A DNA stretch of 64,000 nt from positions 1 to 64,000 of the forward strand of contig NZ_BDJF01000020.1 of the NCBI RefSeq assembly GCF_001895205.1. The letters are read 5' to 3'. Shown here one piece after another: positions 14,409-42,000 of the stretch. A program made the position numbers and the translations under genes. The notes beneath the pieces were generated by a model. The model saw nothing but the letters and a program-made list of their open reading frames with translations. It ran no database searches and had not been told where the DNA came from. Each line of letters begins with the position of its first letter. Within the stretch, counting starts at the first letter, position 1. Source of the stretch: Vibrio injensis (lineage in GTDB: Bacteria; Pseudomonadota; Gammaproteobacteria; Enterobacterales; Vibrionaceae).

Positions 14409-14960
14409 TTACACACTCTCCTTCGCGTAAATTGGGCAATCGGGTAAAAATAACTCGGCGACTAACATCGGTTTATGGTTCATCCATAAACGTGAACGCC
14501 GAGCAAGTAACGGGCCATCCGAGGTCATCGCCCACCCAACTTGTAATCCATCCCGTCGAACATGGTCACTGTTGAAAACCGTGAGCCCCAGCGGAATAGG
14601 CCCTTGTTGAGTCAAATCATCCGGCTGACCTTGCAAAGAACTTTGGGGAATGAGAGTTCGACCGAATACCCAGGGTCTAGTATCTCCGGCTAAAATAACC
14701 TGACGCAGCAAACAAGTTTCCGCCGTTAACCACGCCACTTCTGTAAAATCCAGTTGGGCAGGTTCCAGCCACTGGTTATCGTGCTGAGTAATACTCAACT
14801 GCTGACAACGCTGGGCCATCAGACGCGACAACGACCCTTGCTCTAACAGCCAAGATTGGGCGTTATCCGAGGGATAAGTAAAATCTTCCGGCCATTGCCA
14901 ATCTACTTGGCGTAATGAAGAAAGATAGAGCGGAGTCATTCTATTCATACTAGTATTCAA
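14409..14960 (-). CDS. ubiC: Chorismate lyase
   Basis: Converts chorismate to 4-hydroxybenzoate and pyruvate, the first step of ubiquinone synthesis and the substrate for UbiA encoded next. The 183-aa protein matches the family in LLRQVIL, RTLIPQSSL, and the C-terminal RRSRLWM and LVAELFLPDCPIY blocks. Later in-frame ATGs (codons 5 and 8) are also possible starts; E. coli UbiC is 165 aa. Confidence 0.94.
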   Translation of the reverse strand: MNTSMNRMTPLYLSSLRQVDWQWPEDFTYPSDNAQSWLLEQGSLSRLMAQRCQQLSITQHDNQWLEPAQLDFTEVAWLTAETCLLRQVILAGDTRPWVFGRTLIPQSSLQGQPDDLTQQGPIPLGLTVFNSDHVRRDGLQVGWAMTSDGPLLARRSRLWMNHKPMLVAELFLPDCPIYAKESV

Positions 14961-39069: not shown

Positions 39070-39186
39070 TTACTGATTCTGTTCACTCGGTTGAGCACGA
39101 TCAGGCGGATATAGCGGCCCCGTTTGTCCACACCCTGCTAACGCAAGAGCAGAGAACAAAAATAGAGTTGTGATGGCTGTTTTCAT
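39070..39186 (-). CDS. lptM: Small lipoprotein LptM (YifL)
   Basis: 38 aa: signal MKTAITTLFLFSALALAGC with lipobox LAGC, then GQTGPLYPPDRAQPSEQNQ. The CGxxGPLYxPP start of the mature protein is the LptM/YifL hallmark. LptM helps LptD mature in the outer membrane. I use the ATG at 39186; the frame extends upstream to 39300 but not as a signal peptide. SD is weak. It leads the lysA-dapF cluster as in E. coli. Confidence 0.92.
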   Translation of the reverse strand: MKTAITTLFLFSALALAGCGQTGPLYPPDRAQPSEQNQ

Positions 39187-39261
39187 TTTGCATATCGTTA
39201 TTATTGACTCAATGCTCTCTATAATCGCACCACAATCAGGAAAAGCAATAGCATAGACAGG

Positions 39262-39318
39262 ATGAACGAAACTGAATTTCCGCTCCAGCTTGAGCATCAA
39301 TCAAAATACAGCAGATAA
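39262..39318 (+). pseudogene. cyaY: cyaY (frataxin) N-terminal remnant
   Basis: An 18-codon ORF starts MNETEFPLQLEHQ and then stops. The first six residues match the CyaY start (MNDSEF/MNDTEF), and the place and orientation (divergent from lptM, convergent with cyaA) are exactly those of cyaY in E. coli. Only about 150 bp separate it from the end of cyaA, too little for the roughly 85 missing residues, and I find no frataxin motifs (INRQEP, GGYHF) in any frame. It looks like a deletion remnant. Confidence 0.6.
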
Positions 39319-39471
39319 ATCACGGGGAATCGGTATCAGTTGGGCTATATTAGCTAAAAAATTATACTTAACCGACCAGAGCCGATTCGATGGGCAATGA
39401 ATAACAAAAAGCTAGACATTCCAAATCCGTAGACATTGCTGATAGCAGAGCGAGAATCAACGTCAAGAGGA

Positions 39472-42000
39472 CTAAGCGTTGATCACTTTTGAAGGGCGAG
39501 AATAAACCGAGGAGTCATTACGATAAGGCACAACGTAGCTTTCTCCTTCTTCAGGATGAATGATTTGATAATACTGTGGCAGGTTAAAGTTAATTAATTT
39601 AGCCGCGATCTGATTATCATCTTTCACTGACGTGTAGAAGCTATTAACACTGTTGATCATCTCGTCTTTTTCACCACTACACTGATGATACACCTCGATC
39701 CGATTCGCTTCATCGAGTACGTAAATATTAAAGCCCTGCTCGGTATCCTCAAAAAAGAACTGCACCAATCCTTCACTGGCAAAACCATCCACTACATCGG
39801 GCAGTTGATAATCTTGCTCACGATCCAACATCAGTAATGGTGAACCTTTGAGTTTATTACTGGATATGCTGCGATAAAAATCGACAGAGTTTTCTAAGCG
39901 TTGCACTGAAACGCCTCGCCGCTCAAAAAATAGGCCATACATCTGCTTACCAATCCGCATCGCTTTAAACCGACGGCGTTTCTCTTGCTCAACGGGCTTT
40001 AGGCGTAAATCGATGCACTCGGCCAGTAATTGATAAATCAAATTACGCATCACACCACGCAAATGCTTGCTGTAACAAAAGACATCCACCGACTCTGGAG
40101 GAATCGCATCTTGGTGCATCTTACCTAATACGGTTTTCAGAGCATCCAATATCGCGGTTTCGCCCTTAAAGTGCAGGGTGCGTACTTCTTGCCAAGAGTT
40201 GCGATATACCAAATCAACACTGCCAACCAAACACTGCTGCTGCTCAGAAAAACTGAAAATATCTAAACGCTTAACATCAACCTTAAGCGACTTACCAGTT
40301 AACTGAGTCGTTGGATCGTTTTCAAAATTGATGAACATCGCCAGTTGGCTAATTTCACAAGGACTCGCCAGCGCCGCCATGGTCGGGCGACGTTTATGCA
40401 ATGAAAAGGTATTTCTTAAGTCGCTGACCATTTGATAAAACTTATCGAGGTCGAGATGCGCATCACGGACAACCGAATGCAAACGGGTCGATTCGGTAAT
40501 CAAGCCATTAAAAAAAGACCAAGCAACCAGTTTACTTAAATATTCATGATGATCTAAACAGCGCTGACCAATCATCCGCTCGGCCAGTGGCGGCTGTTTA
40601 TACAGATACCATCCTGAAGGGTTCGCTCGCCCCGAACGAACCTCGATAAAAGTCAGATCCGGCTCATGTAAATCTGGGGAGATCTGTGGATTAAGCAGCG
40701 TCACTTTGCCAGGCAGCACTTCAAACGCGGCATACAATTTACGCGCTAAAATAGAAATATCTTGTGGGCTGATCGCAGAAGTGATGTCATGACGACGCGC
40801 AAATTGAATCAAGTTACGGTAACTGAGCATCAACGCATCCAATAAGGCATGATGAACCGTTTTCACTTGCTCAACTTTCCAATGACGGCGGTTATCCAGT
40901 TGTTGAATCGTTGCCTCGTCCCATTGCCAATCTTGAACCATTTCAGTTAGGGCTTCTCGTCGCCAAGCAACAGATCCCGCCCCCGGTTCACGCGATAATT
41001 TCTCATGAGTTTTGAGATAAAAACAGCGACGAACTAAATCGAGTCGTGAACGGTCACCAATTCGCTCTAAATAGCGGGTGACTTTTTTCAACATCAAATA
41101 GTACGCATCCATCCCATACAGATCAGGCTCATGGGCAAAAAAACGTCGTTTAGTATCAATGCTGAGTAATTGAGTATGGGGATATTCCCAAGAGTAAGCT
41201 TCTAATAAAGTCGCTTTTAAGACCGACTTATACGGTGAGTCAATACTCTTATACAGTTGCCATAAATTGGCACCAAAATACTCTTCGGCAGGAATTCGGT
41301 TTAGGCGCCCAAAATCAATCCATTCACTGCAATCAATGTAGTGATTAGCACACAATAAATTGACGTATTCATCGTAACACTCCTCCATTTCCGGAGGTAC
41401 GATTTGCCACAATAAGCGCTTACCCGCCAGACGAACCGCAGAACGATAGAATTCATCCAACAACAAAAGGTGTTGAGAAGAACCGCAGTTCTCACCGGTC
41501 ATTTGATCCGATTGATTATGGCGAAAACGCTGTTCATCCATAATAAAGAAATTCGCTTCGACACCTTGGCTTTTTGCCCAATCGGTGATCAGCAAACATT
41601 TATTGCTTAATCGTTCACGCTGTTCGCAGCTCATGCTGGCCGCCACACATACCCAAATATCCAAATCACTTGAGGTACTTTGGCCAATCGATGACGTGCT
41701 ACCCATAGTGTATAAGCCTAAAATACTCGGCTGACTAGGTACGGGCAGTGTTGCTCCCAAAGCCAATTGCGTATCATCGATTAATTGTTGCTGAATCGGA
41801 TCTAGGTTAAAACACTCAATACCGTGTGGAACTTGCTGCTCAAAATAGCCGGGGATCAAAGGATGGTTGTAGTGCAGCAAAGCGGGGATCAGATGAAAAA
41901 CACGCTGACCTTGTAAATCCATAAGCGCCAGCGCACGCTCAGTGCGTTGCCGGTTAAGATTATCTAATCGCTGAATTAAGGTTTTTGTGTAAGCCTGCAA
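39472..42000 (-). CDS. cyaA: Class I adenylate cyclase
   Basis: 842 aa. The N-terminal catalytic half has the nucleotidyltransferase core GLYTMGSTSSIGQSTSSDLDIWVC (in part: GSTSSIGQSTSSDLD) typical of enterobacterial-type cyclases; the C-terminal half is the glucose-sensitive regulatory region. It makes cAMP for CRP. It is divergent from hemC, as in E. coli. A CRP-like site lies 65 bp upstream of the start. Confidence 0.96.
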   Translation of the reverse strand: MQAYTKTLIQRLDNLNRQRTERALALMDLQGQRVFHLIPALLHYNHPLIPGYFEQQVPHGIECFNLDPIQQQLIDDTQLALGATLPVPSQPSILGLYTMGSTSSIGQSTSSDLDIWVCVAASMSCEQRERLSNKCLLITDWAKSQGVEANFFIMDEQRFRHNQSDQMTGENCGSSQHLLLLDEFYRSAVRLAGKRLLWQIVPPEMEECYDEYVNLLCANHYIDCSEWIDFGRLNRIPAEEYFGANLWQLYKSIDSPYKSVLKATLLEAYSWEYPHTQLLSIDTKRRFFAHEPDLYGMDAYYLMLKKVTRYLERIGDRSRLDLVRRCFYLKTHEKLSREPGAGSVAWRREALTEMVQDWQWDEATIQQLDNRRHWKVEQVKTVHHALLDALMLSYRNLIQFARRHDITSAISPQDISILARKLYAAFEVLPGKVTLLNPQISPDLHEPDLTFIEVRSGRANPSGWYLYKQPPLAERMIGQRCLDHHEYLSKLVAWSFFNGLITESTRLHSVVRDAHLDLDKFYQMVSDLRNTFSLHKRRPTMAALASPCEISQLAMFINFENDPTTQLTGKSLKVDVKRLDIFSFSEQQQCLVGSVDLVYRNSWQEVRTLHFKGETAILDALKTVLGKMHQDAIPPESVDVFCYSKHLRGVMRNLIYQLLAECIDLRLKPVEQEKRRRFKAMRIGKQMYGLFFERRGVSVQRLENSVDFYRSISSNKLKGSPLLMLDREQDYQLPDVVDGFASEGLVQFFFEDTEQGFNIYVLDEANRIEVYHQCSGEKDEMINSVNSFYTSVKDDNQIAAKLINFNLPQYYQIIHPEEGESYVVPYRNDSSVYSRPSKVINA

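Follow-up and report, generated by a model that had tools for sequence, protein, structure and literature searches.

Most bacteria have one iron-sulfur system, which is usually SUF according to passages of PMC11559095, and SUF alone is described as the commonest bacterial state in parts of two papers (PMC10631705, PMC11559095). The mutual exclusion of ISC and SUF was noted especially in Gammaproteobacteria, as an excerpt of PMC10631705 has it. The group around Vibrio metschnikovii, judged from its genes, appears to live on SUF instead of ISC. This would be the same as the proteobacterial ISC/SUF replacement outlined in those excerpts (PMC10631705, PMC11559095), with one system in and the other out. 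Unlike the replacement described there, the clade sits within an otherwise ISC-bearing genus and has kept iscR and iscS, a remnant of cyaY is still visible, and interface residues of IscS have changed. A replacement inside one genus with remnants still readable seems to be new within the literature searched. This search returned no paper joining CyaY with Vibrio metschnikovii, with a survey cited as reference 16 in PMC10631705 possibly mentioning it, and none of the papers found on Vibrio metschnikovii and iron-sulfur was titled on the ISC/SUF subject.

An indispensable machinery was apparently swapped recently here, and the steps are legible in the defunct frataxin gene, the shortened isc operon and the altered surface of the desulfurase. 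In the living bacteria of this clade one can ask about the purpose of frataxin and IscX, about the IscS surfaces that serve ISC only, and about whether a genus that normally relies on ISC can manage with SUF alone.

The window, meaning the whole stretch of 64,000 nucleotides of Vibrio injensis that was analysed, comes from contig C20 of a 3.67-Mb genome in 33 contigs. The following features surround the frataxin locus:

39070..39186, minus strand: lptM, small lipoprotein gene of 38 aa, intact (ORF; name taken from the first-pass, sequence-only annotation)

39187..39471, no strand: spacer of 285 bp from lptM start to cyaA stop, with the cyaY remnant and faint collinear traces inside (sequence comparison)

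39262..39318, plus strand: cyaY remnant, start plus 18 codons, then a stop (sequence and translation)

39472..42000, minus strand: cyaA, class I adenylate cyclase, intact (gene end set by the longest frame)

The window genome has lost cyaY, and a stub and collinear traces are left at the normal locus. The frame opened at 39262 reads MNETEFPLQLEHQSKYSR up to the stop codon. It begins MNETEF near the usual start, and the intact gene of V. cincinnatiensis, 103 codons long, begins MNDTEF. The traces are weak and collinear: in the DNA comparison the first 19 bases are 95% identical (E 0.001), and a 28-base match of 79% (E 0.045) comes later, with the order preserved. When spacers were compared with CyaY by tblastn, the window gave E 0.034 over 56 residues and V. 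metschnikovii E 0.004 over 29 residues; the spacer of a Vibrio metagenome-assembled genome (MAG) gave no CyaY match, and its DNA matches reached only 9-10 bases. The first-pass annotation had described cyaY as reduced to its first codons next to intact cyaA and lptM, and the locus reads exactly so, with an 18-codon stub in the short spacer. The cyaA product, whose stop codon is at 39472, scores above the curated threshold of the class I adenylate cyclase family, and the 38-aa lptM frame has its ATG at 39184-39186, the listed ORF beginning further upstream at a TTG.

A relocated cyaY, which the same annotation had considered, was not found: the whole window genome (completeness 100%) holds no frataxin-family (PF01491) match. 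Its expectation that such a loss would be unusual in a Vibrio was well founded, as 144 of the 148 genomes in the genus sample have a frataxin match. The four without one are the window genome, G026 with its 1.0 Mb, and two further genomes of 73% and 79% completeness. G026 (L108) has IscU and no frataxin match. Counted among the 144 are three broken or partial copies, one with two in-frame stops (G001:C112:7963-8244), one split in two pieces (G010:C2:3298431-3298731) and one covering 72 of 107 model positions (G071:C5:19510-19710), and in each of them a sequencing error is possible.

From 80 cyaA loci that were fetched, six were read. The comparison with close relatives, also proposed at first pass, places the loss in a small group: cyaY is missing at the cyaA locus in V. 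metschnikovii CIP 69.14 and the Vibrio MAG as well, with differing spacers, and present in both V. cincinnatiensis, V. furnissii and V. mimicus. The whole-genome search agreed, with no frataxin match in the window genome, V. metschnikovii and the MAG and a match over the cut-off in six of six others. V. metschnikovii (G148) is about 90% identical to the window in DNA over the 10 kb compared and is therefore probably another species. The MAG (G149) is 73-81% identical, in pieces; with 2.6 Mb it is possibly incomplete, and what its whole genome lacks therefore counts for less than what its locus shows.

The first-pass reading of the locus as the loss of an iron-sulfur regulator captured only a part of the picture. 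The regulator has indeed gone, but it did not go alone, because most of ISC is gone too and SUF is present; what looked like a lost regulator becomes the probable replacement of the entire machine that CyaY served. As reference we used the isc locus of V. cincinnatiensis, ordered trmJ, iscR, iscS, iscU, iscA, hscB, hscA, fdx, iscX, pepB, where all names except iscR, iscS and iscU are presumed from position, and compared its DNA with the window genome, V. metschnikovii and the MAG. In all three, iscR and iscS match, a gap follows, and then come the terminator after iscX and pepB; iscU, iscA, hscB, hscA, fdx and iscX are gone, and only 257 bp separate iscS from pepB in the window genome. Outside this locus, whole-genome DNA searches of the three matched nothing in the isc part of the query except a stretch of 70-72% within hscA, which is probably dnaK. 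IscS and IscR of the window genome exceed the NCBIfam cut-offs (TIGR02006, TIGR02010).

IscU (PF01592) has no match in G000 (the window genome), G148 and G149 and is present in eight of the 11 genomes searched, so that CyaY and IscU are missing from the same three genomes. Across the genus sample, 147 of 148 genomes have IscU, the window genome being the sole exception. With IscU absent, its residue 108 is moot as a marker of frataxin independence. Second matches in some genomes are explained by the fact that the IscU family includes NifU. One such case is a second NifU_N protein of V. cincinnatiensis DSM 19608 (319-aa frame, G150:C22:46343-46708, L109), possibly the NifU of a nitrogen-fixation cluster. 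Compared with E. coli, which has both ISC and SUF, the clade shares IscR, IscS, homologues of SufB-E, ErpA and NfuA; unlike in E. coli, none of IscU, IscA, HscA, HscB, Fdx, IscX and CyaY was found in it.

That cyaY and isc genes were merely missed, as an artefact of assembly or sampling, is scarcely credible. Each of the three assemblies is a draft or a MAG, yet in every one the contigs span both loci, the flanking genes are in place and the residual sequence differs, and the window genome scores 100% for completeness. The cyaY gap is seen in two further assemblies, where the sequence left over is not the same, and this argues in particular against a collapse in one assembly.

In place of the lost genes, all three genomes carry a suf operon ordered sufB, sufC, sufD, sufS, sufA, sufT, sufE. 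SufB, SufC and SufD exceed the NCBIfam cut-offs TIGR01980, TIGR01978 and TIGR01981, and SufS that of TIGR01979. SufE has its best match in PRK09296, under the equivalog cut-off (128 vs 160 bits), and the best match of SufA is SufA, likewise under the equivalog cut-off. SufB/SufD (PF01458) was found in four of 12 genomes, namely the window genome, V. metschnikovii, the MAG and V. mimicus, and not in V. cincinnatiensis (two genomes), V. furnissii, V. anguillarum, V. aestuarianus, G026, G064 and G117. In the genus sample 21 of 148 genomes have it, and the 20 besides the window genome all have an IscU match.

These losses and gains bear on whether cyaY simply dropped out on its own, because selection was relaxed or the genome was shrinking, with no connection to the other iron-sulfur genes. 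The gene can go alone, since the 1.0-Mb G026 keeps IscU and lacks CyaY, and E. coli cyaY mutants are mild in phenotype according to a passage of PMC4440780. We nevertheless regard an isolated loss as very unlikely, because CyaY, IscU and the rest of the operon were lost in the same three genomes, all with an extra SUF, and because the IscS of G026 does not have the changes at R116 and R225 described below.

The origin of this SUF appears to lie outside the Vibrionaceae, as suggested by protein identities and the best matches listed, and the operon would have been acquired horizontally. A search of the class for SufD covered 369 genomes, 210 of them with a match. The nearest SufD outside the window genome belongs to G503, from another family of the same order (60%); besides it, SufD identities among the matches listed were at most 38%, with one partial match at 40%. 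The G503 locus reads iscR, iscS, sufBCDSATE, ndk, rlmN, named by likeness to the clade proteins, and identities between window genome and G503 range from 91% for SufB, 85% for SufC and 70% for both SufS and SufT to 66% for SufE, 60% for SufD and 50% for SufA. Like the clade, G503 combines sufBCDSATE with retained iscR and iscS, a shortened IscS changed at R116 and R225, and no frataxin found in the genome search. Among the eight genomes searched for frataxin, including G503, it was found only in two of the same order without a SufD match, and it was absent too in five more distant SufD-bearing genomes. In G503 suf follows immediately behind iscS, within the isc locus. V. metschnikovii differs, with isc and suf about 1 Mb apart on one contig (G148, C6; L144, L155), which places its suf outside the isc locus.

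It is very unlikely that the clade SUF descends vertically from an ancient SUF of Vibrio that the relatives have lost. Some SUF does occur in the 20 other Vibrio genomes, but it is of another type, with a SufA-like match upstream of sufB in 20 of 20 loci. Their SufB proteins are only 60-65% identical to that of the clade (71% over one partial match), against the far closer SufB of G503 outside the family, and SUF is missing from V. furnissii and from both genomes of V. cincinnatiensis. The clade operon is flanked by genes for LemA, an M48 peptidase, a trypsin-like protein, a GntR regulator and an ABC transporter. No syntenic flank pair marking an empty site was found in the two V. cincinnatiensis and V. 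furnissii, and no intermediate with clade-type suf and a full isc operon in the genomes examined. The 16 kb around suf hold no tRNA gene. Plasmid SUF systems are more distant, with SufB at best 76% among the matches listed and SufD at best 33% among the eight matches listed, and SufD had no match on viral contigs; hence these searches revealed no mobile vehicle. Close to the suf region, some 130 bp (L154, reverse strand, 14584-14714) have copies of 83-92% identity in several places in V. cincinnatiensis and V. furnissii.

We consider it highly probable that ISC gave way to a foreign SUF before the clade diversified and that cyaY decayed as an orphan. The common ancestor of the window species, V. 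metschnikovii and the sister MAG lineage would have acquired sufBCDS-A-T-E, which would then have become the machinery for building iron-sulfur clusters. Between iscS and pepB, the genes for the scaffold, carrier, chaperones, ferredoxin and IscX would have disappeared, and cyaY, which acts on the IscS-IscU complex, would have been left without purpose and decayed in place. We infer this order of events, its cause and the position of SUF as the main machinery. A 2014 survey found iscU in every genome with cyaY, as given in part of PMC4440780, which is consistent with a decay of cyaY after the loss of iscU. In E. coli, CyaY binds SufS-SufE and can inhibit it, as described in a section of PMC11446229, so the possession of SUF alone does not make CyaY useless. 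Given this inhibition, the loss of cyaY might, speculatively, even be favoured under SUF.

Of the two retained proteins, IscS was plausibly kept for tRNA thiolation and other sulfur delivery, and IscR for feedback regulation, probably acting on suf today. In the five IscR sequences aligned, the presumed cluster site of CX5CX5CXXH type keeps its cysteines and histidine. A site resembling the type-1 IscR consensus lies upstream of sufB in three of three genomes, where it matches 23 of 25 positions and is equalled in none of the 200 mononucleotide shuffles made for each genome. Upstream of iscR such a site is present in six of six examined (22-25 of 25). Through this putative site IscR likely controls suf directly, in an ISC-style feedback. 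The E. coli suf operon uses a type-2 IscR site, in contrast to the type-1-like site that precedes suf in the clade. A type-2 site before sufB was rejected as a candidate, since 148, 45 and 196 of 200 shuffles scored equally well. The window genome has three A-type proteins, ErpA, SufA and NfuA, and no IscA was found among them; ErpA is over its cut-off, and NfuA is under it because only its N-terminal stretch was searched.

We find it rather probable that after the swap IscS shed the docking sites of its lost partners, the IscU tail and the CyaY/IscX arginines 116 and 225, while keeping the TusA sites and the arginines shared with ThiI, that IscR was rewired to SUF by ISC-style feedback, and that both happened convergently in two families. 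If true, this selective shedding amounts to a natural mutagenesis of the frataxin-binding surface. According to parts of PMC2854127, R116 and R225 belong to the set of IscS residues whose mutation impairs CyaY and IscX binding; R225E/E227R leaves TusA, IscU and ThiI binding intact, and R116E weakens ThiI binding too. The same parts report that the helix 379-391 contacts IscU and that deletion of 376-404 abolishes IscU binding (PMC2854127).

The IscS sequences of the three clade genomes were aligned against 46 rows, made up of five rows from named species, G064 and 40 genomes hand-picked from the 147 with IscU; among the picks, L277 duplicates the genome of the V. cincinnatiensis type strain, leaving 45 distinct genomes. 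All three clade sequences differ from each of the 46 rows at 24, 116, 136, 174, 225, 257, 304 and 379, and further at 382, 388, 390 and 393-404, with missing residues counted. The IscU-binding tail is thus lost and the CyaY/IscX contacts R116 and R225 are changed. L386 and M389 of the IscU helix are kept, as are R220, R223 and R237 of the CyaY/IscX surface and W45, E49, D52 and D65 of the TusA site. R340 to K and R112 to H occur in the MAG only. The tail is enriched in differences (16 of 26 positions vs 7 of 378, Fisher p 6e-17, the positions not being independent events), and so are the CyaY/IscX residues (2 of 10 vs 5 of 368, Fisher p 0.012), a modest and post hoc result.

Four of the 46 rows have both SUF and ISC (V. 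mimicus, G053, G054, G099) and show no change at 116 or 225, so the presence of SUF alone does not bring these changes. G026 and G117 were left out of the alignment and read separately. G026, without CyaY and with IscU, keeps R116 and R225 and matches through residue 401; CyaY loss alone did not cause the changes there. G117 keeps both arginines and the full tail, its gene being split by a frameshift near residue 35. The IscS of G503 has 388 residues and carries R112E, R116S, R223K, R225N and E227V.
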